NCBI GenBank assembly: GCA_014360985.1
Contig: JACIWK010000006.1
Span: forward strand, 33,905-97,904
Source: Candidatus Bipolaricaulota bacterium
Lineage (GTDB): Bacteria > Bipolaricaulota > Bipolaricaulia > Bipolaricaulales > Bipolaricaulaceae
Reading direction: 5' to 3'
DNA: 64,000 nucleotides
The translations under genes and the position numbers were made by a program. The notes below the pieces were generated by a model. That model was not told the DNA's origin and ran no database searches. It saw only the letters and a program-made list of their open reading frames with translations. Shown here piece by piece: positions 15,224 through 35,547 of this stretch; within the stretch, counting starts at the first letter, position 1; every line of letters begins with the position of its first letter.

Positions 15224-16190
15224 GTGCCCTGGGGATGGGACACGGTGACGCTCCGGATCCCCAAGGTCCGGCACGGGAGCTACTTCCCGGCGTTGCTCGA
15301 GCCCCGGCGGAGGACGGAGAAGGCCCTTCTTTCGGTGGTCCAGGAGGCGTACGTCCACGGGGTGAGCACGCGGAAGGTGGACGACCTTGTCCGGACCCTC
15401 GGGATCGAGGGGATCTCCCGGAGCGAGGTGTCGCGGATCTGTGCCGACTGGGACGAGCGGATGGAGGCGTTCCGGAACCGTTCGCTGGAGGGCGAGTACC
15501 CGTACGTGTGGCTCGATGCGACGGTGGTGAAGGTTCGGGAAGGGGGCCGGGTGGTGAACATGGCGGCGGTGGTCGCCGTGGGAGTGACCCGGACCGGGGA
15601 GCGGGAGGTCCTGGGGTTCGACGTGGGACCTGCGGAGAGCTACGGGTTCTGGGTGTCGTTCCTGCGGGGACTCGCGGGCCGGGGCCTCTTCGGGGTGAAG
15701 CTCGTGATCTCCGATGCGCATGTCGGGTTGAGGCAGGCGTTGTCGGAGGTCCTGGGTGGGGCGTCTTGGCAGCGGTGTCGGGTGCACTTCATGCGGAACC
15801 TGCTGGGGCTTGTTCCGCGGGGAGCCCGAGGAGCTTGTCGGGGCATGGGTGCGGACGATCTTCGCTCAGCCGAACCAGGAGGCAGCGCGGGAGCAGCTAG
15901 AGCTGGTGGCCCGAAGCCTCGAGGGGAAGTACCCCAAGGCGGCGGAGCTTTCGACGAACGTCCTTGAGCGACTGGACCGTGAGGTCAACCGGAGGTGCGA
16001 CGTGGTGGGGATCTTCCCCAGCGGGCGGGCGGCCCTGCGGCTGATCGGGGCGGTCTTGGAGGAACAGGGAGACGAGTGGCTGGCCGTGCGCCGGTACTTC
16101 AGCCTGGGGTCGATGGCCGTGCTCTACAGGAGCTCCCCGGAGGAGCGCGAAGTCCCTGGGGATCTCGAAGGAGGTGATCGCCGTCTAGCT
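15224..16190 (+). pseudogene. IS256-family (mutator-type) transposase remnant, N-terminally truncated and frameshifted near 15,810
   Basis: Frame 1: WDTVTLRIPKVRHGSYFPALLEPRRRTEKALLSVVQEAYVHGVSTRKVDDLV...; continues in another frame: EELVGAWVRTIFAQPNQEAAREQLELVARSLEGKYPKAAELSTNVLERL.. Confidence 0.85.
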
Positions 16191-16613
16191 CGTCACCACC
16201 GACGAGGAACCCAATCTACACCACTTGACGGGACGTGACCGGGCAGGGTAGAACGTCTTCCACTTCGCATTGCGCCCCCTGAACCCGTTCCGATGGAGGA
16301 TGTGGCGGATCGTGTGCGGAGACAGGGCGAGCCCCTTCTCCCGCCACAGGTACCAGGCGAGCCTTTTGCGGCCGTAGCCTGTGGCCTTCTTGGCCTCCAG
16401 AACCGCGGCCTCGATCTGGGCTACGATCTGGGTCGGGCAGTGGTGGGGACGACGCGAGCGGTCGTCCAGTCCCCTCACTCCATCGTCGCGGTAGCGCTCG
16501 ACCCACTTCCGGACGACGTTCCGTGAGGTGTGCCACCTTCGGGCGGTCTCGGCCACGCTCCCCGTCTCCAGGTACGTCTCGACCCGCCTCATCCGTGCCG
16601 CCTCCCTCTTCAT
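16190..16613 (-). pseudogene. IS481-like transposase remnant (HTH/homeodomain part only, DDE domain missing)
   Basis: MKREAARMRRVETYLETGSVAETARRWHTSRNVVRKWVERYRDDGVRGLDDRSRRPHHCP...LSPHTIRHILHRNGFRGRNAKWKTFYPA, then ends. Confidence 0.75.
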
Positions 16614-16766: not shown

Positions 16767-16795
16767 TTGACACGACCAACCGAAACCCTTATATT
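16767..16795 (+). promoter_or_regulatory. Sigma70-type promoter upstream of the first c-di-GMP riboswitch
   Basis: TTGACA - 17 nt - TATATT. Confidence 0.8.
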
Positions 16796-16827
16796 CCCCT
16801 AGAAGCTGGTGGTTACGCCTTGGGCGT

Positions 16828-16903
16828 GCCACGACAAGGGCAAACCCCTCGCGAGGGGGGGGACGCAAAGCCACGGGTCCCACGCGGACAGCCGGGTTGC
16901 CGA
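16828..16903 (+). promoter_or_regulatory. Cyclic di-GMP-I (GEMM) riboswitch aptamer 1
   Basis: ACAAGGGCAAACCCCTCGCGAGGGGGGGGACGCAAAGCCACGGGTCCCACGCGGACAGCCGGGTTGCCG; conserved GGGCAAACC / GNRA-capped P2 (GCGA) / GGACGCAAAGCC / AGCCGGGTTGCC core. Confidence 0.9.
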
Positions 16904-17977
16904 ATGGAACGCACAACGAGGGCGCAGCGGCGGTGGGCAGCAGCGGTCGGCCTTGTGCTGGTCGCCTTCCTGTTGAGTGGATCCTCGATCCAACCCCTCG
17001 CTCCCGCGGGGGGCGCCGGGGCGACCGGCCTGCCTCAGTTGATTGGGGCGGCCCTCCCGTGGGGGCTCGAGCGGATCCACGCCCCCCAGGCGTGGCAGGT
17101 GACCACGGGAAGCCCGGAGGTCATCGTCGCGGTGATCGATAGCGGCATCGATTGGACGATCCCCGAGTTGGCCGCGGTGCGCTGGACGAACCCGCGCGAG
17201 ATCCCTGGCAACGGCATCGATGACGATGGGAACGGGTACGTGGACGACGTCTACGGGTGGGACTTCCGAGACAACGTTCCAGCCCACCTCCGGCGCACGC
17301 AGCTTCACTGGCACGGAACGTTCGTCGCTGGGATCATCGCCGGCCGGCTGAGCGAGGGCACGGCCGCGGGCGTGGCCCCGAACGTGCGGATCATGGACGT
17401 GCGGTTCCTCGACTCCCGTGGCCTGTTCACGACCAAGGATTGGGACCGCCTGGCGGCGGCCATCCGCTACGCCGTCGACAATGGAGCGCGGATCATCAAC
17501 CTTAGCCTGTACGCCAAGGGGACACCGCCGGCGGTTGTGGAAGGAGCCCTTGCCTACGCGGCATCGCGAGGGGCAATCGTGGTGGGGATCGCCGGGAACG
17601 AAGCCCGGGCGGAGGTCCTCTATCCGGGCCGGTACAGCACTGTTCTCGCCGCATCCGCCACGGATGCTGCCGACGCCCTGGCCTCGTTCAGCTCGTGGGG
17701 GCCGGAGGTCGCTGTGGCGGCCCCCGGGCACGAGGTCGTCTCTCTCCTCCCAGGAGGGAGGGTGGCCACGAACTCCGGCACCTCCTTCGCCGCCCCCCAC
17801 GTGAGCGGCACGTTGGCCCTCATCCTGTCCGCGAATCCTGCTCTGAGCGCGGAGGAGGCGGCGCGGATCCTTCTCGCCACCAGCTCCCCCCTCACACCGA
17901 CCCCTGACCCGCGCTTCGGGGCGGGCCTGGTGAACGCGGGGCGTGGGGTGGCAGCAGCGGCAGGGATCGCCCGCTAG
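16904..17977 (+). CDS. Secreted subtilisin-like (S8) serine protease
   Basis: Signal-like N-terminus; catalytic motifs VIDSGID, WHGTFVAGIIAG, NSGTSFAAPHVSG. Confidence 0.93.
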   Translation: MERTTRAQRRWAAAVGLVLVAFLLSGSSIQPLAPAGGAGATGLPQLIGAALPWGLERIHAPQAWQVTTGSPEVIVAVIDSGIDWTIPELAAVRWTNPREIPGNGIDDDGNGYVDDVYGWDFRDNVPAHLRRTQLHWHGTFVAGIIAGRLSEGTAAGVAPNVRIMDVRFLDSRGLFTTKDWDRLAAAIRYAVDNGARIINLSLYAKGTPPAVVEGALAYAASRGAIVVGIAGNEARAEVLYPGRYSTVLAASATDAADALASFSSWGPEVAVAAPGHEVVSLLPGGRVATNSGTSFAAPHVSGTLALILSANPALSAEEAARILLATSSPLTPTPDPRFGAGLVNAGRGVAAAAGIAR

Positions 17978-17991
17978 GGACGAATGTCCTC

Positions 17992-18020
17992 TTGACAGGA
18001 GACAGGAGCCGTCTTATAGT
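17992..18020 (+). promoter_or_regulatory. Sigma70-type promoter upstream of the second c-di-GMP riboswitch
   Basis: TTGACA - 17 nt - TATAGT. Confidence 0.8.
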
Positions 18021-18042
18021 GCAAACCAACGTAAACTAACCC

Positions 18043-18112
18043 TGACAAGGGCAAACCCACGGGAACGTGGGGACGCAAAGCTACGAACCCAGGACGGGTA
18101 GTCGGGCTGCCA
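18043..18112 (+). promoter_or_regulatory. Cyclic di-GMP-I (GEMM) riboswitch aptamer 2
   Basis: TGACAAGGGCAAACCCACGGGAACGTGGGGACGCAAAGCTACGAACCCAGGACGGGTAGTCGGGCTGCC; GGAA-capped P2; conserved GGACGCAAAGC. Confidence 0.9.
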
Positions 18113-18138
18113 GGCAAGGCCGGCAGCCCGTTTTCGTT
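18103..18138 (+). terminator. Intrinsic terminator overlapping the 3' part of riboswitch 2 (expression platform)
   Basis: CGGGCTGCC ... GGCAGCCCG followed by TTTTCGTT. Confidence 0.75.
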
Positions 18139-18166
18139 GGGTGCGGCAAGCAAGGAGGGCAGCGAC

Positions 18167-18490
18167 GTGCAGGTGACGTTGTACTACAACAGCGAGGACC
18201 AGTACCTGTTGGGGCTGGTGGATGGGATCGCCGAGCGCGAGCGTAAATCCCGGTCGGCGGTGATCATGTCCATTCTCGAGGAGTACTTTGAGCGCAACAA
18301 ACGCCTCGGGGAGATCCTCGTGGACTTGAAGGCCATTTCCCCGCAGGATGTCGAACGGGCTCTCCAAGAGCAGAAGAAACCGGGCAACGGAACACGACGG
18401 CTGGGGGAGATCCTGGTCGAGAAGGGTCTGGTGCGGGATACAATGCTAAAGCGGGCCCTGGTGATTCAGGGCCGGTTCAGCCAAAGTTAG
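18167..18490 (+). CDS. Small ribbon-helix-helix protein with MshEN-like (T2SSE_N-type) C-terminal motifs
   Basis: AAGGAGG SD before GTG; N-terminus QVTLYYNSEDQYLLGLVDGIAERERKSRSAVIMSILEEYFE (RHH-like); C-terminus RLGEILVDLKAISPQDVERALQEQ...RLGEILVEKGLVRDTMLKRAL (two RLGxxL motifs). Confidence 0.7.
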   Translation: MQVTLYYNSEDQYLLGLVDGIAERERKSRSAVIMSILEEYFERNKRLGEILVDLKAISPQDVERALQEQKKPGNGTRRLGEILVEKGLVRDTMLKRALVIQGRFSQS

Positions 18491-18514
18491 AAGCACGCTA
18501 ACCAAGACGTACAG

Positions 18515-18592
18515 AACGCCGAAAAGGTAAACCCGGAGCGATCCGGGGGCGCAAAGCCATGGACCTCCCGTAGGCCGCCAGGCTGCCGAAGC
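18515..18592 (+). promoter_or_regulatory. Cyclic di-GMP-I (GEMM) riboswitch aptamer 3
   Basis: AACGCCGAAAAGGTAAACCCGGAGCGATCCGGGGGCGCAAAGCCATGGACCTCCCGTAGGCCGCCAGGCTGCCG; GCGA-capped P2; GGCGCAAAGCC core; SD AGGAGGGG follows before ATG 18610. Confidence 0.85.
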
Positions 18593-18609
18593 ACAAGCAG
18601 GAGGGGACC

Positions 18610-21600
18610 ATGGCGAATCGAGGGTGCTTGCTGGGTACATCCAGGGTTGTCCTGACCGTTGCCTGTTCAGCCATTGCCATCGCCGCCCTTTGGGCGCCTA
18701 CAGCGACGGCACAGGGTTGGCCTTACTGCATTGGGAACTGCAACGCTAAGGACGTGGCCGTTGAGCGGCTCTACCTGGCGAACGTCAGCTACGTCAACGG
18801 CGTGCTCTCAGCGGATGTGTACGTGGACTTCAAAGTGACCGCTGCTGACAGATACTGCGTCCTCATCGCAATCGGCTTCTCTGCGTCGAGCGGTTGCCCG
18901 AACGTTCAGACTGTCTGGCGGATGTTTGGTGACCTTCCCCAAGGGGCGTACATAGGCCAGTACGTTGGCCGGATTAGCGTCGCGGGCAATCAGTTGTGGG
19001 TTTGCCGGCAGTTTGCTGAGTGGAGGAATCAGGTAAGTCCAGGTGGATGTCCCACGGGGGACTGCAACCTGTACTCGGTCGGCTCCAAGTGCTGGGAGTC
19101 GACTGGCGGGCCCTACATCGTATACGAGGTAGAAGACCCCAGACTGTCGATCCAGAAGAAGACGAACGGGGTGGATGCCGATACGCCGCCGGGGCCGATG
19201 GTGCTGGCGGGGTCCACCGTCACCTGGACGTACGAGGTGACGAACACGGGGAACGTGACGTTGACTGACGTGGTCGTGACCGACGATAAGGCAGGACCGA
19301 TCGGGACGATCCCGACGTTGGCCCCGGGAGCGAGCGCGACCCTGACGAAGATGGGGGTAGCGGAAGCGGGGCAGTACGCGAACGTAGGGACCGCAACGAC
19401 AACCTACAACGGGCAGACAGTGAGCGATACGGATCCCAGCCACTATGTGGGAGTAGACGGGTACATCACGATCACGCCAGGGTCGGCGACGAACGAGGTG
19501 GGTGACCCGCACACGTTCTTGATCACGGCGTACGCGCAAGGGGCGGCCCCCAGTGGGTGGAGCTTGGCCTACACGGTGATGCCGAGTCCGTCCAGCGTGA
19601 GCCTGAGTGGGCCAACGGTGGCCTTGGATGGGATGAGCGCCACCTGGAACTTGACGATCAACCACCCCTCACCAGCCGTGTTCACGGCGTCGGCCACGGT
19701 CGCGATGACGTTCACGGGCGGAACCCAAGTCGTGCGGACCACGAACGGGTCCTCCCCCAACAGCGCCCCGGCCACCAAGTCCTACGAGTACCGCCAGGCG
19801 AAGATCGACCTTACCCCGGGCTCGGACACGAACGAGGTCGGGGAGGACCACGTCATCACGGCAACGGTGCGGGTATGGAACGGGACGAGCTGGGTCGTGC
19901 CTCCCAACGGCGGATCGGTCACGTTCTCCATCGCCTCGGACACCACCGGCACCGCCGCGATCGTGTCCACGAACCCCGCCCCGATCTCGGGCGGGACGGC
20001 CCAGGTCACCATCCGCGCCACGAACCCAGGCCTGGTGAAGGTCCACGCGGTAGCGGACGTCTTGGGTACGGGCACCGTGACCGCCGAGACCGGGGTTGGC
20101 CCAAGCGGCCCCGACGCCGAGAAGATCTACGAGTACCGCCAGGTCAGGATCCGCCTCACCCCGCTTGCGGACACGAACGAGGTGGGCGAGAACCACGCGT
20201 TCACGGCCACGGTCGAGGTGTACGTGGTCGGCACGGGGTGGGTTGCCGCCCCCGATGGAACCCCGGTCACGTTCAGCTTCGTCACGAACCCGATCGGGGC
20301 CACGTTCGTGGGGCCGAGCTCGACGACAACGAGCGGCGGCCAGGCTCAGGGGACGATCACCGCCACCCAGCCTGGAACCGTGACGGTGAAGGCCCAGGCC
20401 ACGGTGGGGTCCCTCACCGTGGAAACAAACGGGTCCGGTGAGAACAGCGCCCCGGCCACCAAGTCCTACGAGTACCGCCAGGCGAAGATCGACCTTACCC
20501 CGGGCTCGGACACGAACGAGGTCGGGGAGGACCACGTCATCACGGCAACGGTGCGGGTATGGAACGGGACGAGCTGGGTCGTGCCTCCCAACGGCGGATC
20601 GGTCACGTTCTCCATCGCCTCGGACACCACCGGCACCGCCGCGATCGTGTCCACGAACCCCGCCCCGATCTCGGGCGGGACGGCCCAGGTCACCATCCGC
20701 GCCACGAACCCAGGCCTGGTGAAGGTCCACGCGGTAGCGGACGTCTTGGGTACGGGCACCGTGACCGCCGAGACCGGGGTTGGCCCAAGCGGCCCCGACG
20801 CCGAGAAGATCTACGAGTACCGCCAGGTCAGGATCCGCCTCACCCCGCTTGCGGACACGAACGAGGTGGGCGAGAACCACGCGTTCACGGCCACGGTCGA
20901 GGTGTACGTGGTCGGCACGGGGTGGGTTGCCGCCCCCGATGGAACCCCGGTCACGTGCAGCTTCGTCACGAACCCGATCGGGGCCACGTTCGTGGGGCCG
21001 AGCTCGACGACAACGAGCGGCGGCCAGGCTCAGGGGACGATCACCGCCACCCAGCCTGGAACCGTGACGGTGAAGGCCCAGGCCACGGTGGGGTCCCTCA
21101 CCGTGGAAACAAACGGGTCCGGTGAGAACAGCGCCCCGGCCACCAAGTCCTACGTGGACGCCAGGATCAGCGTGACCCCGCTGGAGTCAGTGAACCCGGT
21201 AGGCACGAACCACACCGTAACCGCGCTTGTGGAGATCAACTCCGGAGCAGGCTGGGTGCCGGTGCCGAATGGAACGCCGGTCGTGTTCACGCTTCTCAAC
21301 AACACCGCCGGAGCTACGTTTGTGCCAGCATCGACCACGTCGACCACGGGCGGGCAGGCCTCGGTGACCGTGTTCTCATCGAACCCTGGTGGTGTCGTCA
21401 TCCGGGCGACGGCGGACATGACTGTGGCAGGCTTGGCGCTGCAGCGGGCGACCGGGTCCGGTGGCCTGAACGGGTCGGACGCCGTCAAGAACTGGGTCCG
21501 GAACAACGAGCCGCCCACGGCGGAGAGCCTATCTCTGGTGACGTGCCGGAACACGCCCCTCGCCTTCTCCCTCTGGGGCAGCGACCCCGACCTGAACCCG

Positions 21601-23355
21601 GCGGATCCGGCGTCGCATCCGCTGACGTTCGCGATCATCGGGGCACCGACCTACGGCGCGGTGAGCGGAGACCTGAGTGCTGTCAAGTACAGCGCGCCGC
21701 ACAACGCGGCGGTGGACGTGGTGTACACACCGCAGCTTGACTTCCTGGGGACCGACTTCATCGCGTATACCGTCACGGATCCCACCGGCACGTTCGCCGT
21801 GGGAAGGATCCAGATCATGGTGGTCGACTGCGGGGAGGAGATCGCCGGTGGAGGCGGCGCCCTTGGCCCGCGGATCGTGATCAACGAGGTCGCCTGGGGC
21901 GGCACGGAAGCCGATCCAATGCACGAATGGATTGAACTCTACAGTTCGTTTGATGAGCCGCTGGACCTCACGGGGTGGACCCTCCGCTGGCAGCGCAAGC
22001 AGCCGGCGACGATGCTCGACCAGTACGTGAAGGTCGTGGCGCTCCGCGGGACGATTGCCCCCTACGGGTTCTACCTCATGGAGCGCCGCACCGACGACGT
22101 GGTGAGCGACATCGAGGCCGACCTCATCTATGACGAGGTAGGACCGATTGTGATCAGCGAGATCGCGTGGGGCGGCACGCCGGCGAGCGCCGACGACCAG
22201 TGGATCGAGCTCCTCAACGTGACGGAGCGAGAGGTGGACCTCACGGGGTGGAGCTTGCGCTGGCGGCTGGCCCGGCCTGTTACCCCCGCCGATGAGGCAT
22301 GGAAGGTGGTCGAGCTACGGGGGACCGTCCCCGCCCAGTCAACGTACCTCTTGAAGCGGGGGACAGAGTTGGTGATCGGGGACGTACCGGCAGACCTGAT
22401 CTACCATGCGGCCCTCGATCCGAGGGGCGAGGTGCTGGAGCTCCTCGACTCCACGGGGAAGGTTGTGGATACAGCCAACGCCGACCGGAGCGGTGTCGGT
22501 GGATGGGCAGCCGGGTATGGGCTTGACGGTGCCCTGCCGCACGCGACGATGGAACGGGTGAACCCCTTCGACATGGACCATGAACTCAACTGGCGGCCCA
22601 ACACAGGGGTGCTCAGCTGCGGGCACGACCGAGGGGGCAACGCTCTGACTGCATCACCGCGGTCCGTGAACGAGCAAATCCTGTTCTGGGCCTACCCAGG
22701 TGTCGATCCGGCGGAGTTCCCCGCGGACCTGGTGACGCTCCCGTTCACCCTGGAGCTCTCCAACCTAGGAGAAGTTCTGGAGCTCGTGGATCCGCTGGGG
22801 AGGATCGTGGACACCGCCAACGCGGACAACCCCCACCGGGACGGCTGGGCGGCGGGTTACGGTCTCTACGGGGCACAGCAGTTCGCAACTATGGAACGGG
22901 TCGATCCCTCGCTCCCCGATCTCGACGAACATTGGGACCCCAACCGGTACATTGTGATCAACGGCCTCGACGCGCAAGAGGTGTGCCTCGTGGCCACGGC
23001 CCGGGCAACGAACGAGCCAGTGGTGATCGGGCATATCTCAGATCAAGCATTGCAGGTCGTCCGCCGTGGTGAGCTGCTCACGATCGCTGTGGTGGCGCCA
23101 GCCCTTTGCGACGAGGTTCCGTGCCTTCCGCATGCTGTCCTCACCCAGGCCGATGAGGTGGCCGGCGGAGCGGGGGCGGCGCTGCCCGAGGAGACCATCG
23201 CGCGCGCACTGATGGGGAAGCGCGTCGGCCGCACGGACAACTTCCTGTTCCAGGTGTCGACGGCAGACCTCGAGCCAGGGAAGTACCGCTTGTGGATCTC
23301 CCTCGGTGAGGGGCTGCTCCGTGTGGTGGCGTTCGAGGTGGTGCCCAGCCAGTAG
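18610..23355 (+). CDS. Giant secreted surface protein: DUF11-like, Ig-like repeats, cadherin-like and lamin-tail domains
   Basis: 1581 aa; signal peptide; DUF11-like 'GSTVTWTYEVTNTGNVTLTDVVVTDD'; Ig-like 'LTPxxDTNEVGExHxxTATV' units; 'IVINEVAWGGTEADPMHEWIELYSS' and 'IVISEIAWGGTPASADDQWIELLN' lamin-tail repeats. Confidence 0.85.
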   Translation: MANRGCLLGTSRVVLTVACSAIAIAALWAPTATAQGWPYCIGNCNAKDVAVERLYLANVSYVNGVLSADVYVDFKVTAADRYCVLIAIGFSASSGCPNVQTVWRMFGDLPQGAYIGQYVGRISVAGNQLWVCRQFAEWRNQVSPGGCPTGDCNLYSVGSKCWESTGGPYIVYEVEDPRLSIQKKTNGVDADTPPGPMVLAGSTVTWTYEVTNTGNVTLTDVVVTDDKAGPIGTIPTLAPGASATLTKMGVAEAGQYANVGTATTTYNGQTVSDTDPSHYVGVDGYITITPGSATNEVGDPHTFLITAYAQGAAPSGWSLAYTVMPSPSSVSLSGPTVALDGMSATWNLTINHPSPAVFTASATVAMTFTGGTQVVRTTNGSSPNSAPATKSYEYRQAKIDLTPGSDTNEVGEDHVITATVRVWNGTSWVVPPNGGSVTFSIASDTTGTAAIVSTNPAPISGGTAQVTIRATNPGLVKVHAVADVLGTGTVTAETGVGPSGPDAEKIYEYRQVRIRLTPLADTNEVGENHAFTATVEVYVVGTGWVAAPDGTPVTFSFVTNPIGATFVGPSSTTTSGGQAQGTITATQPGTVTVKAQATVGSLTVETNGSGENSAPATKSYEYRQAKIDLTPGSDTNEVGEDHVITATVRVWNGTSWVVPPNGGSVTFSIASDTTGTAAIVSTNPAPISGGTAQVTIRATNPGLVKVHAVADVLGTGTVTAETGVGPSGPDAEKIYEYRQVRIRLTPLADTNEVGENHAFTATVEVYVVGTGWVAAPDGTPVTCSFVTNPIGATFVGPSSTTTSGGQAQGTITATQPGTVTVKAQATVGSLTVETNGSGENSAPATKSYVDARISVTPLESVNPVGTNHTVTALVEINSGAGWVPVPNGTPVVFTLLNNTAGATFVPASTTSTTGGQASVTVFSSNPGGVVIRATADMTVAGLALQRATGSGGLNGSDAVKNWVRNNEPPTAESLSLVTCRNTPLAFSLWGSDPDLNPADPASHPLTFAIIGAPTYGAVSGDLSAVKYSAPHNAAVDVVYTPQLDFLGTDFIAYTVTDPTGTFAVGRIQIMVVDCGEEIAGGGGALGPRIVINEVAWGGTEADPMHEWIELYSSFDEPLDLTGWTLRWQRKQPATMLDQYVKVVALRGTIAPYGFYLMERRTDDVVSDIEADLIYDEVGPIVISEIAWGGTPASADDQWIELLNVTEREVDLTGWSLRWRLARPVTPADEAWKVVELRGTVPAQSTYLLKRGTELVIGDVPADLIYHAALDPRGEVLELLDSTGKVVDTANADRSGVGGWAAGYGLDGALPHATMERVNPFDMDHELNWRPNTGVLSCGHDRGGNALTASPRSVNEQILFWAYPGVDPAEFPADLVTLPFTLELSNLGEVLELVDPLGRIVDTANADNPHRDGWAAGYGLYGAQQFATMERVDPSLPDLDEHWDPNRYIVINGLDAQEVCLVATARATNEPVVIGHISDQALQVVRRGELLTIAVVAPALCDEVPCLPHAVLTQADEVAGGAGAALPEETIARALMGKRVGRTDNFLFQVSTADLEPGKYRLWISLGEGLLRVVAFEVVPSQ
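19761..21153 (+). repeat. Tandem direct repeat, period 684 bp, about 2 copies, inside the surface-protein gene
   Basis: Identical translated units; identical 97-aa antisense ORFs at 19782-20075 and 20466-20759; one difference noticed, T20273 vs G20957 (Phe/Cys). Confidence 0.95.
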
Positions 23356-23381
23356 CGGGTTCGCCGAAGGCGCCCAAGAGA

Positions 23382-23412
23382 AGGGCCCGGCCGTCTGCCC
23401 GGGCCCTTTTTC
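23382..23412 (+). terminator. Intrinsic terminator after the surface-protein gene
   Basis: AGGGCCCGG-CCGTCTG-CCCGGGCCCTTTTTC. Confidence 0.85.
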
Positions 23413-31176: not shown

Positions 31177-34100
31177 CTACCGACCGCCACGGCGACGCTT
31201 GATCGCGTACAGGACTTCGTCTGCCCGGCGCAACAGGGTTTCGACCGTGGTTGGGCCGTCGTGCACCGGGTTCCACACCACGTGGCCCAGGCTGAGGCTC
31301 ACCACGGGACCCGGAACCTCGTCCACCGTGATTCCTGCGGTCTCCTCCTTCAGCCGGCGGAGGGCGTCCCCTCCCCCGTCTCCCGTCTCGGGGAGGACGA
31401 TCACGAACTCCTCCCCCCCGTAGCGGAACACGTAGTCTCCCGCCCGCACGCTCCCCCGGAGGACCTCCGCCACGCGGCGCAGTGCAGCGTCCCCCACCAG
31501 GTGCCCGTACCGGTCGTTCACAAGCTTGAAGTCATCGACGTCGGCCAAGATGAGGGTCAGCGGGTGCCCGTACCGCTTGGCGCGCTCGATCTCCCGCTGC
31601 AGGACCTCGGCCAGGAACCTCCGGTTGTAAAGACCGGTCAGGGGATCACGGATCGCCTGCTCGTGAAGTTCGTGCTCGACCTCGATCCGCCGAAGCGTGT
31701 CCCTGAGGTGCCCCGCCAGGGTCTCCGCGACAAGCACGTCGTCCGGACCGAACGCATCCCGCCTCTCGGAGACAGCCTGGAACACTCCCCGGTCTCCGAT
31801 CGGGCAAGAGAGAACGCTCCTGATTTCGGGGCGGACGGGCCGGGCAAAGGGGAAATCGTCGACATTGCCGCAGATCGTGCGGCCGCTCTCGAGCGTCCGC
31901 CATGCGACCCCTTCCCCGCGCGGTCGGGGAACGGCGTCCCCGCTCGTCGAGGCCATGGGGACGAGCCGATCACCTTCGACAAGGCCCACATTGCACGTCG
32001 AGAAGCCGAGGATCCGGCTCGCCTCACTCACGACGATCGCACAGGCCTGGTCGACGGAGCGACAGCCCTGAAGGCGCGACACGATCTCGTGCAGCCCAGC
32101 CAGTCGGTCTCCGAGCGCCTTCACCTGTGCGTGCCGCTCCAGACCCGCCATCGCCACAGCCAGCTCCGAGGCAACGATCTTCAACAGGTCTTGATCTTGG
32201 GGCGGGATCCCGTCCGCCCGAGGCGTTTGGACATCCAGCACCCCGAGCACCCTCTCCCCGATCGTGAGCGGGAGAGCGAGTTCACACCGGGTCTCAGGAA
32301 TCTCGTGCACGTAGCGCGGATCGGTTGCCACGTTGGGAACATACACCGGACCGCCAGACCGAAACGCTGCGACGGTGATCCCGTTTCCCGCGAGAGGCAG
32401 GCGAAGGCCCTCCATACCCGACAGATAGCCGTGCTCGGCAACGACGACGAGGTCGTCCCCCTCGCGTTCAAGGACCGCACAGGACCGATAGCCAAACAGC
32501 CTGTCCACCAGATCGAGCACAAGCGCGTAGAGCGCGCCACGGTCCGAAGCGAGCTTCATTCGCCGCGAGACATCCTCCACGTCGCGCAGCCTTCGTTCGA
32601 GCGCCACCAATTCCGTGTACGTGCGCGCGTTGCGGAGGGCCGTCGCCACCGCTGCCGACACCGTACGAAGAAGGCGTAGGTGCTTCTCAGCGTAGACACG
32701 GGGGGCGAAGCTCTGCACCGTCAGTACGCCCAGCACTTCGTTCTGGTAGAGGAGAGGAACGCCGAGCCAACTCCGCACGGCCTTGCCAACCTGCTGCGCC
32801 GCCGCCGGCAGCCTGTCCTTCTCCCGCTCGAAGTCGCCGATCAGCAGGGGTTCCTTGGTGGACGCGATCCAAGCGGTGAGGCTCTGCTGGGGATCGAGGG
32901 GCACCACGAGCTCGGGAAGCCGTTGTCCCTCCTCCACTGCGAACGCTAGTCGAAACTCGTTGCGGGCCTCATCCACGAGGGCAAGGGTGAACGCGTCGCA
33001 CGGGATGAGCTGCCTCACCTCCTCGTAGATGCGCTGGAACACCGCGCTCAGGTCAAGGCTCGTCCCGAGGGCAATGGACACCTCGTACAATCCCTGTAGA
33101 TCAGCGTTCACCGCACGGAGGTCCTTCTCGAGCATCGTCCGCCCGATTGCCGCGCCGAGCGCGCGCGCCGCGGCCTGGAGGGCCTCGACCTCGGACCTTG
33201 TCCACACGCGCTCGCGTCGGCATTCGTCGAACCCCAAGAACCCCCACCACCTCCTCGCCACGATGATCGGGACCGCAACGAGAGAGAGAATCCCCTGCGC
33301 AACGAGAACCGGCTGCTCCTCGGGCGGGAACTCCCGTACCAGACCATGGATGGCCTCCCCGCGGGAGAAGGCCTCGGCCCAGCGCGAGAATCCGATCTCG
33401 ACAAGCGGGAGACTCTGGAGAGCGGGATTCTCAATCTGGGGGGCAATCCCCGGCGCAACCCATTCGAACCGCTGGCTGACCCGGGGCTGTTCGCGTTCCC
33501 CGTCGTGCACCTGGAAGATGTAGACCCGACTTACGTCGGCTGCCTCCCCGAGCTGGGCCAACACCGTTGGGATCTCTCGGTCGAGCTCTCCGCCCCGCAG
33601 GAACCGCTCCGCGGCGAACGCCACCGCGCCCAGCACCGCATCCCGCCGGGCCGCCGCCTCCTCGGCCTCCACCCGCTCCGTGATATCGAGAATCGAAACG
33701 AGAACCCGATCGTAGGTCCGCTCATGCCCGGGCAGAACCCGCCACCCCAGGTGGATGTGGAGCGGCTTCCCATCTGCCGCTCGGTTGATCCCCTCCCCGT
33801 GGAACTCCGTCCTCCCCTCCCACATCGCCTGTAGCTCCGCGGCGAACAAGGGGTAGACCTCTTCCGGAATGAGCTCAGGAAGTCTCGCCAGGAGCTCCTC
33901 CTTGTCCCGGACCCGGTACAGGTCGAGCGTCGTTCGGTTCACGTCCTCCACCCGGACTAGGGCCAGGAGCTCCTGGATCAGATGGGGGTTCTCGCCCAGA
34001 AGGGCGGCGAGGTCGGTGACCCCGCGAGCCTTGAGGGACTCCAACTTCCGGGCCACCACGGAGAAATCCTCGATCCACAGGGAGACCGGGGATTGCTCAA

Positions 34101-35547
34101 ACAGCGCTCGGTACCGGGCCTCGCTTTCCTGAAGCGTTTCGTAGAGGAGCGCGTTCTCCAGGGCCACCCCGGCCTGGGCTGCCAGCAGATCCAGCACTGG
34201 AACGTACGGGGTGAGGTGAGCCGGGTGGCGGCTGTGAACGTAGAGGATTGCGCGGTGGCTCTTGCCGACGCGGATCGGCACCCCAACCAGGGAGCGGATC
34301 CCTCCCTTGACCAACACTGGACTGGCGCGGATGGGGCGGCCGGCCGTGGCTCGCACAGGAGGATCGGTCTTGCCGTCGGCGCGGATATCCTCGATGAGGA
34401 GGGGCTGTCCCGTGTCGAGGATCCAACGGGAGAACCCCTTGGGACGGACCCGTACCGGGATCGGCGGCGCCCCCCGGGGGTCGAACGACTCGACCAGAAC
34501 GCCCTTCGCGTCGAAAAGGAGGATGTTGGCGTGATCGGCCCTGGCGAGCTCCCGCGCGGCGGTGACGATGCTCTGCACCACCTCCTTGGAGTCAAGATGC
34601 CCGGCGATGGTAGGGGCAATCCGACTGAACGCTTCGAGCTGAGCGATCCGGTTCACCAGCTCCCCTTCGAGGTGCTTGCGGTCGGTGACGTCGCGGTTGA
34701 CGGACACGGTCGCCGGCTGCCCCCGGTACTCGATGAGCGACACGTGGCACTCCGTCCAGAACGTGCTCCCGTCCTTGCGGCGTTTCAGCTCGTCGAACGC
34801 CACGACCTCCCCGCGGAGCAGGCGCTCGTTGACCTCGGCGTAGGTGATGGCGGGCTCCTCGGCGGCGAGGTCGCGCATCACGTTCATCCGCAGGAGCTCC
34901 TCCCGCGCGTACCCGGTCTGCCTCTCGGCCGCGGGGTTGGCCTCGAGGATCGTCCCGTCGAGGGCGGTGATGTACACCGCGTCCGCCAGCCGCTCGAACA
35001 GAAACCGGAACAGCCGCTCCGATTCCGCGAGCCGTTCCTGGTTGCGGGCAGCGCGGACGGCGAGCGTGATCTCCTCCCACACAAGATCCAGGCGGGCGAA
35101 GTCGTCCTCGGAGAACGCGTCCGGATCCTCCCGGTTGTCGAGGTTGAGGTAGCCGATCACTTCACCGGAATCCGTGATCGGCAGCGTGAGGAAGACCTCC
35201 ACGGGCCCAACCGAGGCAAGGGCCGCCGCCAATTCCTTCCCCGGAAGTCTCCGGCTCAGGTCGTAGGGGCGACGCACGATCGCGGGCCGGTCGCGCGGCA
35301 GTTCCCGCTGGATGATCCGCTCCCGAGGGATCCGGATCGGGGCCAGGAGGTCCAAATCCCACCCCTCGGCGGCCACGTACTCAAACGCTCCGCTGTCCTC
35401 GTTCAACACAAGGAGGGTCCCGCTCTGGGCGCCCGGAACAATGGCGATCGCGTAGCGGAGAACGGTGCGGGCGACCTCGGCCAGGGTCTGACCGCGGTTG
35501 AGGTCGCGCAGGAACCGCAGCAAGGCTTCTGAGGGCTTCCCGCCCAT
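31177..35547 (-). CDS. Multi-GAF/PAS sensor diguanylate cyclase
   Basis: 1456 aa; several GAF and PAS domains; C-terminal RDPLTGLYNRRFL...ADVDDFKLVND..GD..VFRYGGEEF with RAGD (RxxD I-site-like) upstream. Confidence 0.9.
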   Translation of the reverse strand: MGGKPSEALLRFLRDLNRGQTLAEVARTVLRYAIAIVPGAQSGTLLVLNEDSGAFEYVAAEGWDLDLLAPIRIPRERIIQRELPRDRPAIVRRPYDLSRRLPGKELAAALASVGPVEVFLTLPITDSGEVIGYLNLDNREDPDAFSEDDFARLDLVWEEITLAVRAARNQERLAESERLFRFLFERLADAVYITALDGTILEANPAAERQTGYAREELLRMNVMRDLAAEEPAITYAEVNERLLRGEVVAFDELKRRKDGSTFWTECHVSLIEYRGQPATVSVNRDVTDRKHLEGELVNRIAQLEAFSRIAPTIAGHLDSKEVVQSIVTAARELARADHANILLFDAKGVLVESFDPRGAPPIPVRVRPKGFSRWILDTGQPLLIEDIRADGKTDPPVRATAGRPIRASPVLVKGGIRSLVGVPIRVGKSHRAILYVHSRHPAHLTPYVPVLDLLAAQAGVALENALLYETLQESEARYRALFEQSPVSLWIEDFSVVARKLESLKARGVTDLAALLGENPHLIQELLALVRVEDVNRTTLDLYRVRDKEELLARLPELIPEEVYPLFAAELQAMWEGRTEFHGEGINRAADGKPLHIHLGWRVLPGHERTYDRVLVSILDITERVEAEEAAARRDAVLGAVAFAAERFLRGGELDREIPTVLAQLGEAADVSRVYIFQVHDGEREQPRVSQRFEWVAPGIAPQIENPALQSLPLVEIGFSRWAEAFSRGEAIHGLVREFPPEEQPVLVAQGILSLVAVPIIVARRWWGFLGFDECRRERVWTRSEVEALQAAARALGAAIGRTMLEKDLRAVNADLQGLYEVSIALGTSLDLSAVFQRIYEEVRQLIPCDAFTLALVDEARNEFRLAFAVEEGQRLPELVVPLDPQQSLTAWIASTKEPLLIGDFEREKDRLPAAAQQVGKAVRSWLGVPLLYQNEVLGVLTVQSFAPRVYAEKHLRLLRTVSAAVATALRNARTYTELVALERRLRDVEDVSRRMKLASDRGALYALVLDLVDRLFGYRSCAVLEREGDDLVVVAEHGYLSGMEGLRLPLAGNGITVAAFRSGGPVYVPNVATDPRYVHEIPETRCELALPLTIGERVLGVLDVQTPRADGIPPQDQDLLKIVASELAVAMAGLERHAQVKALGDRLAGLHEIVSRLQGCRSVDQACAIVVSEASRILGFSTCNVGLVEGDRLVPMASTSGDAVPRPRGEGVAWRTLESGRTICGNVDDFPFARPVRPEIRSVLSCPIGDRGVFQAVSERRDAFGPDDVLVAETLAGHLRDTLRRIEVEHELHEQAIRDPLTGLYNRRFLAEVLQREIERAKRYGHPLTLILADVDDFKLVNDRYGHLVGDAALRRVAEVLRGSVRAGDYVFRYGGEEFVIVLPETGDGGGDALRRLKEETAGITVDEVPGPVVSLSLGHVVWNPVHDGPTTVETLLRRADEVLYAIKRRRGGR

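Follow-up and report, generated by a model that had tools for sequence, protein, structure and literature searches.

Among the closest described systems is the PPEP-1/CD2831 pair of Clostridioides difficile, in which an OFF class-I switch controls the zinc metalloprotease PPEP-1, the substrates are sortase-anchored, and a class-II ON switch completes the arrangement (PMC6366702). A comparison with the island described here reveals that both loci place the genes of a secreted protease and a surface-type protein under c-di-GMP riboswitches, whereas the protease of the island is an S8 serine enzyme, no anchor motif is visible, all of the switches belong to class I, and there is an extra regulator. 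In Desulfobacca acetoxidans, three c-di-GMP-I switches and one c-AMP-GMP switch lie within 7 kb (PMC9481103). This locus shares with the island several independent c-di-GMP-type switches with genes between them within a few kilobases, and it provides a precedent for the clustering of independent c-di-GMP-I switches; an earlier note on this DNA had regarded the arrangement of protease, regulator and adhesin, each under its own aptamer, as unusual. However, the D. acetoxidans switches form logic gates together with AdoCbl switches, whereas the island has a single aptamer per gene, and its targets include a probable protein receptor for the same ligand. Every part of the island is of a known kind, and it is the architecture that is new: probably, a conserved c-di-GMP-controlled cell-surface island with three RNA switches and an RHH-MshEN protein sensor.

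In the window, which is the whole stretch of 64,000 nt that was analyzed, cmscan against Rfam detects exactly three class-I c-di-GMP aptamers, all on the + strand: aptamer 1 at 16830..16905 (RF03167, 69.5 bits, E 2e-14), aptamer 2 at 18041..18115 (61.4 bits, E 5e-12), and aptamer 3 at 18517..18591 (63.3 bits, E 1e-12). The three GEMM aptamers proposed in the earlier note are therefore real, with positions agreeing to within 1-3 nt, and one gene does stand behind each: an S8 subtilase, a 107-aa RHH-MshEN protein and a 1581-aa secreted protein, respectively. RF03167 (c-di-GMP-I-GGC; gathering cut-off 59 bits) is the first-ranked Rfam family by E-value for all three, each of which exceeds the cut-off, and RF01051, the model named in the note, matches them at 62.4, 63.5 and 56.3 bits, where its cut-off is 35. 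The island aptamers share the architecture, the tetraloop-capped P2 and the pocket bases of the RF01051 class, but score about as high or higher with the variant model. Two further class-I aptamers, both on contig C37, bring the total for the 1.56-Mb genome to five.

The ranking of RF03167 raises the alternative that these aptamers form a GGC variant class with a ligand other than c-di-GMP. The consensus of RF03167 has G at the position of A47, where that of RF01051 has A, and the meaning of the "GGC" label is taken from this comparison of the two consensuses; all five aptamers of the genome have A, and a separate ligand of the GGC class was rejected on this base. The canonical pocket G20/A47/C92 is present in 5/5 aptamers and the RF01051 scores are far above the cut-off, and c-di-GMP is therefore the expected ligand. 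The genome also encodes GGDEF and HD-GYP enzymes, and the gene of an MshEN-type receptor adjoins the aptamers, so that a different ligand is very improbable. Recognition of 3',3'-cGAMP (GEMM-Ib) was rejected for this genome because the base at position 20 is G rather than A in 5/5 aptamers and neither GGDEF protein shows the change typical of cGAMP synthases. The aptamers, their pocket bases, the terminator, the anti-start strand, the domain make-up and the conservation are all read from the sequence, and ligand binding in vivo is inferred.

Between 16600 and 18700, three promoter-like sites are observed, compared with 0.1 expected in shuffles. One of these, a conserved sigma70-type promoter (TTGACA-N17-TATAGT, 17992..18020, + strand), precedes aptamer 2 and the regulator gene. 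The 3' strand of aptamer 2 is also the 5' strand of a predicted intrinsic terminator (CGGGCTGCC...GGCAGCCCG TTTT, 18103..18134, + strand), which is found in 15/15 related loci, although it is weaker in G026 (z -1.3), and which does not follow the other aptamers. Aptamer 2 is thus predicted to switch transcription ON: when ligand is absent, the terminator would form from its 3' strand, and bound ligand would let transcription run on into the RHH-MshEN gene. Because there is no strong promoter between the regulator gene and the giant gene downstream, read-through would probably reach the latter as well.

The regulator (107 aa, GTG start, 18167..18490, + strand) scores 74.6 bits with NF053729, the curated model of the MshE-type c-di-GMP domain (cut-off 38). 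Its structure model (pLDDT 92) superimposes on c-di-GMP-bound MshEN (PDB 5htl, 8pfa) at 1.3 A over 58 residues with a probability of 1.00, whereas PF05157 yields no match up to E 0.1 and none above the cut-off genome-wide. The published MshEN domain contains two 24-residue motifs joined by a 5-residue linker (PMC5013675), and the regulator has the same fold and two-motif layout. Motif 2 is complete; in motif 1, Lys55 replaces the turn Gly, and the linker comprises 8 residues (6-8 across the family). Furthermore, the domain lacks the MshEN_C part and is joined to an RHH rather than to an ATPase or glycosyltransferase. The N-terminus forms a beta-helix-helix that matches CopG/Arc with Foldseek probabilities of 0.8-0.9 and a target TM of at most 0.83, but with E-values >1, and the Pfam RHH models do not match. 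These results suggest that the protein probably binds both DNA and c-di-GMP, and the "dedicated regulator" of the earlier note is itself a probable c-di-GMP receptor. CdbA of Myxococcus xanthus is likewise of the RHH family and binds c-di-GMP (PMC7156744), as the regulator is predicted to do; however, CdbA is described without mention of MshEN, whereas the predicted site of the regulator lies in a separate MshEN module.

The DNA target of the regulator may be an inverted repeat before its own promoter (GACGAATGTC, GAC-N4-GTC, 17979..17988, + strand), which recurs 13 bp (or 23 bp) upstream of the -35 element in many regulator promoters. The strict form is found in 14/61 loci, against a background of 0.03 per kb. 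A search with the composite GAC-N4-GTC-N3-TTGAC returns mostly the promoter of the regulator itself and otherwise chance-like sites; one possible extra target was seen in G018. The regulator, which occurs in 74/100 genomes of the phylum, would sense at the protein level the same c-di-GMP that is sensed by the RNA, and may act at this conserved repeat.

Aptamer 3 lies directly upstream of the gene of the giant secreted protein (1581 aa, 18610..23355, + strand), as is also the case for its homologues in relatives. In a departure from the RF01051 class, the 5' strand of its own P3 (GCCATGGACCTCC, 18556..18568, + strand) is complementary to the Shine-Dalgarno (SD) sequence and start codon of this gene (GGAGGGGACCATGGC, 18600..18614, + strand). 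Such complementarity is found at 12/12 loci, with pairing energies of -21 to -29 kcal/mol, and the other aptamers, checked in the same way, were negative. In the fold model, the unpaired fraction of the start region increases from 0.19-0.32 to 0.48-0.69 once aptamer 3 is enforced. Aptamer 3 is accordingly predicted, from comparative sequence data, to switch translation ON: in the ligand-free state, the P3 5' strand would pair with the SD and AUG, and ligand would let P3 form and thereby free the start. Enforcing the aptamer costs 10-18 kcal/mol of nearest-neighbour energy, and it would therefore work only co-transcriptionally or with a large tertiary gain. The giant protein would be gated twice by c-di-GMP, in transcription through aptamer 2 and in translation through aptamer 3. 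The Vc2 switch of tfoY in Vibrio cholerae is also a class-I aptamer that acts on translation (PMC7371385), but Vc2 is OFF, whereas aptamer 3 is predicted to be ON. The protein contains DUF7507, Ig-like and Big_9 domains and two lamin-tail domains, and no cell-wall anchor is visible; the label "adhesin" is a guess from these domains, and we infer its location at the surface. In its predicted ON direction, the switch of this gene resembles those of the C. difficile adhesins, which supports this side of the analogy drawn in the earlier note.

The secreted S8 subtilase (357 aa, 16904..17977, + strand; PF00082, E 1.2e-46) is probably transcribed from a second conserved sigma70-type site (TTGACA-N17-TATATT, 16767..16795, + strand), the TTGAC and -10 element of which are kept in 11 loci, and relatives encode orthologues in the corresponding position with 68-88% identity. 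Unlike typical RF01051 members, aptamer 1 ends on a start codon; in 11 loci, its 3' edge carries the protease AUG, which lacks an SD. This geometry looks suited to occlusion, and the best guess is that aptamer 1 acts as a translational OFF switch, possibly resembling Vc2, in which the start codon would be occluded with c-di-GMP and the protease would be made at low c-di-GMP. The guess is drawn purely from geometry, because start accessibility in the fold model differs little between the apo and bound forms. Searches of the sequence and folds for an anti-start strand or a terminator platform at aptamer 1 found none.

The direction of this switch bears on two readings of the island. The full model of the earlier note, in which c-di-GMP balances a surface adhesin against a protease that cleaves it in the manner of PPEP-1, is tentative: the large protein is predicted ON, and in at least 10 genomes the S8 gene neighbors a large surface-type gene, each with a c-di-GMP-I aptamer, whereas aptamer 1 shows no OFF platform, the protease family and anchoring are unlike those of C. 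difficile (PMC6366702), and S8 genes of the island type also occur in genomes without an adjacent giant gene. It is equally possible, though again doubtful, that c-di-GMP turns on the protease, the regulator and the giant protein together, with the protease maturing or processing surface material and no shedding. The missing OFF platform agrees with such joint control, and among the NCBIfam models the protease is closest to mycosin, a processing enzyme, although it is below the mycosin cut-off. The S8 and RHH genes of genus g6 are close neighbors, with no aptamer found near either, an arrangement that fits co-expression rather than opposition. The occlusion geometry at the SD-less start and the OFF action of Vc2, a known translational class-I switch (PMC7371385), argue against joint activation.

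A search for the gene set in relatives, as the earlier note had suggested, reveals that the island is conserved. The order aptamer-S8-aptamer-RHH-aptamer is retained in 9 genomes of genus g1, this one included, and in 2 of g7 (11 genomes of two genera in total), and partial versions occur in other genera. The two aptamers on C37 form a second cluster with secreted proteins, which is on the same contig as the island in several relatives. The only domain matches there are dockerin, SdrD_B, NPCBM-associated and PKD, and a chaperone-usher reading was rejected for want of profile support. Neither an anti-start nor a terminator platform was found in this cluster. The second of its two aptamers precedes a stable anti-SD hairpin, which stays unchanged in the model when the aptamer is enforced.

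The genome encodes two GGDEF and two HD-GYP proteins, and no EAL proteins were found in it. One of the two GGDEF proteins is a GAF/PAS/GGDEF diguanylate cyclase (1456 aa, 31177..35547, - strand) in the window, which is probably the associated source of the ligand of the island; c-di-GMP from one of the two cyclases would be read at three mRNA sites. In three relatives, a cyclase orthologue is adjacent to, or at most 4 kb from, the second aptamer cluster. In some relatives, the island has its own cyclase nearby. The RHH-MshEN proteins may be phylum-typical c-di-GMP-responsive transcription regulators whose own production depends on a c-di-GMP ON riboswitch, with the island then forming a self-contained feed-forward circuit with RNA and protein sensing and a doubly gated surface gene; the chances of this reading are judged to be slightly below even.

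Signaling by c-di-GMP has hardly been studied in Candidatus Bipolaricaulota, itself a little-studied bacterial group: PMC10086821, in the part that concerns it, counts GGDEF proteins and names no targets, and pili, flagella and surface adhesins were not found when the type species was described (PMC6092417). The island supplies concrete targets: large secreted proteins, a small protein that is probably both receptor and regulator, and two kinds of ON switch that can be read from sequence. Aptamer 3 suggests how a class-I aptamer might conceal a start codon with its own P3 strand, and the locus offers a simple system for asking why RNA and protein read one signal in one place. The parts are short and testable in E. 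coli, which makes culture of the organism unnecessary. For the organism itself, the island points to a compact, testable on/off program for the cell surface.

Scanned in full with covariance models, the 64-kb window yields three class-I c-di-GMP aptamers on the plus strand (aptamers 1, 2 and 3 at 16830-16905, 18041-18115 and 18517-18591; E values of 1e-12 to 1e-14) and none beyond these, which bears out the proposal of the earlier note that three GEMM aptamers each precede a different gene; against RF01051, the family named in that note, they score 56-63 bits, above the cut-off of 35. The genome (1.56 Mb in 41 contigs, 94% complete) contains five aptamers in total, the three of the window and two on contig C37. 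The top Rfam family for the aptamers is the variant RF03167 (c-di-GMP-I-GGC). The two models differ at a position that we take to correspond to A47 in the Vc2 structure numbering, with A in RF01051 and G in RF03167. Assignment to the GGC class was rejected, as all five aptamers carry A and not G at this presumably class-defining base. Because A47, G20 and C92 are present in all five, their sequences identify them as canonical c-di-GMP-I aptamers in the binding pocket. At its gathering score, RF03167 picks up GC-rich class-I aptamers that retain A47, and its label can mislead the annotation of canonical c-di-GMP-I riboswitches.

Aptamer 1, which has its own promoter and lacks a Shine-Dalgarno (SD) sequence, is followed by the gene of an S8 subtilase (PF00082, 1e-46), and the AUG is located at the 3′ edge of the aptamer in 11 loci. 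The modelled accessibility of the start differs little between the two states, so that an OFF switch by occlusion, by analogy with Vc2 (PMC7371385), is only a guess. Two insertion-sequence remnants at 15224-16613, an interrupted Mutator-type transposase and an HTH_32-type transposase fragment (minus strand), end approximately 150 bp before the aptamer-1 promoter.

Aptamer 2 precedes the gene of a 107-aa protein (RHH-MshEN, the putative regulator). In 15 of 15 loci, an intrinsic terminator uses the 3′ strand of aptamer 2 as its own 5′ strand, an overlap with no comparable counterpart at the other aptamers of the set; because the terminator and the ligand-bound aptamer are mutually exclusive, aptamer 2 is predicted to be a transcriptional ON switch. 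Additionally, a GAC-N4-GTC inverted repeat (mostly GACRRATGTC; 17979-17988 in the window) is present upstream of the −35 element of the regulator promoter in many relatives, at a helically phased distance of 13 bp or, one helical turn more, 23 bp. Of 61 loci, 14 have the strict form, whose background frequency is 0.03 per kb; the repeat is a candidate autoregulatory site. A possible extra site lies before the gene of a small cysteine-rich secreted protein (L172, genome G018). In genome G007, the second RHH-MshEN gene (L163:1501-1720; L131, upstream of 6734) is accompanied by the inverted repeat, together with a sequence resembling a decayed c-di-GMP-I aptamer (AACGCTAACC...GGGGGCCAAGA). In a distant relative (L149:8851-9010, record CAIOGO010000004.1), the aptamer before an RHH-MshEN gene retains the overlapping terminator and carries G20 to A (AGAGCAAACC), a change linked to 3′,3′-cGAMP sensing, which points to ligand switching in this family of regulators.

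No Pfam match to the 107-aa protein exceeds the cut-off, PF05157 included, and the protein scores 74.6 bits against NCBIfam NF053729 (MshE-related c-di-GMP-binding domain; cut-off 38). In its AlphaFold model (pLDDT 92, 48 homologues as input), c-di-GMP-bound MshEN and PilF match the C-terminal part at 1.3 Å over 58 residues with 40-46% identity, the CopG and Arc repressors match the N-terminal part, and no single structural match covers both parts well. In the PDB, the family profile matches PilF, PilB and MshE. Compared with the published MshEN motif (PMC5013675), motif 2 is complete, motif 1 carries Lys at the position of the turn Gly, and the spacer measures 8 rather than 5 residues. Among 100 sampled genomes of the phylum, 74 encode a member of this family, and relatives in named records are nearly all from Candidatus Bipolaricaulota or Acetothermia, with one same-genus record named Candidatus Bipolaricaulis sp. 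Five loci close to those of Bipolaricaulota (L101, L112, L137, L144 and L145) are filed under Thermotoga sp., Caldisericota, Neomarinimicrobiota and Atribacteria; some of these names are probably wrong, since L101 at least matches the same-genus genome G010.

The product of the gene following aptamer 3 has 1581 aa, an N-terminus resembling a signal peptide, and DUF7507, Ig-like, Big_9 and two lamin-tail domains; it may plausibly be an adhesin. The gene contains a near-perfect 684-bp tandem duplication (19759-20476 and 20443-21160; at most three mismatches), and the DUF7507/Ig repeat number differs among relatives. The SD and start codon of the gene behind aptamer 3 have a complementary sequence in the 5′ strand of its P3 (GCCAUGGACCUCC in this genome), seen in 12 of 12 loci with energies of −21 to −29 kcal/mol and z of −3 to −7; no such complementarity below z −1 is found at any other aptamer of the set. 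Aptamer 3 is predicted to be a translational ON switch, because enforcing it in the model opens the start region (unpaired fraction from 0.19-0.32 to 0.48-0.69). This costs 10-18 kcal/mol, which implies that aptamer 3 would have to act co-transcriptionally or through tertiary gain outside the energy model. With no strong promoter evident upstream of aptamer 3, transcription of the giant gene probably proceeds by read-through from aptamer 2, and the gene would be gated twice; one weak promoter match (9 of 12) lies within the regulator gene.

Conservation in relatives, on which the earlier note had made its proposal depend, is clear: the order aptamer-S8-aptamer-RHH/MshEN-aptamer is kept in eleven genomes, nine of the same genus (this one included) and two of another, with a giant-protein homologue after aptamer 3 in all but one, where the contig ends. 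In genome G030, of another genus, the order is S8-aptamer-RHH-aptamer, and genus g12 shows aptamer-S8, the start codon lying 4 nt past the aptamer; in genus g6 the S8 and RHH genes are close together and no aptamer was found nearby. Across the phylum, 94 of 100 genomes contain c-di-GMP-I aptamers.

The second cluster (C37:54032-54813, equal to L013:6033-6814), which is kept in relatives (L103:11467-17722), contains two aptamers that precede small secreted proteins with no match to any family; a dockerin-bearing protein and an SdrD_B/PKD protein of approximately 960 aa come next. It shares a contig with the trio or its remnant in G005, G006, G013 and G014, and all five aptamers of G005 lie within 12.5 kb; in the present genome the island is divided between two contigs, and the gene that follows the giant gene lies on the opposite strand compared with G005. 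The genome encodes two GGDEF proteins, two HD-GYP proteins and no EAL protein. Both GGDEF motifs are intact; the RxxD inhibitory site is present in one of the two proteins, and the change that we take to be typical of cGAMP synthases in neither. The orthologue of one, the GAF/PAS/GGDEF cyclase at 31177-35547, adjoins the second cluster in G014; in G004 and G011 the two are less than 4 kb apart. Linkage of this cyclase to the island is seen in several relatives (L103:17732-18283, L204:2882-7207 and L202:17081-19000).

In C. difficile, PPEP-1, a zinc protease, is under an OFF class-I switch, and the adhesins that it cleaves are under ON class-II switches (PMC6366702), and Desulfobacca has seven riboswitches within 7 kb (PMC9481103). 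A c-di-GMP-binding RHH protein, CdbA (PMC7156744), and fusions of MshEN to other domains (PMC5013675) are already known; the literature searched, which covered few subscription papers, yielded no fusion of RHH to MshEN and none controlled by a c-di-GMP riboswitch. Bipolaricaulis anaerobius is described as prosthecate and uncultured, with no adhesins, pili or flagella found (PMC6092417). The island is real and conserved, and it is a new variation on known kinds of parts.
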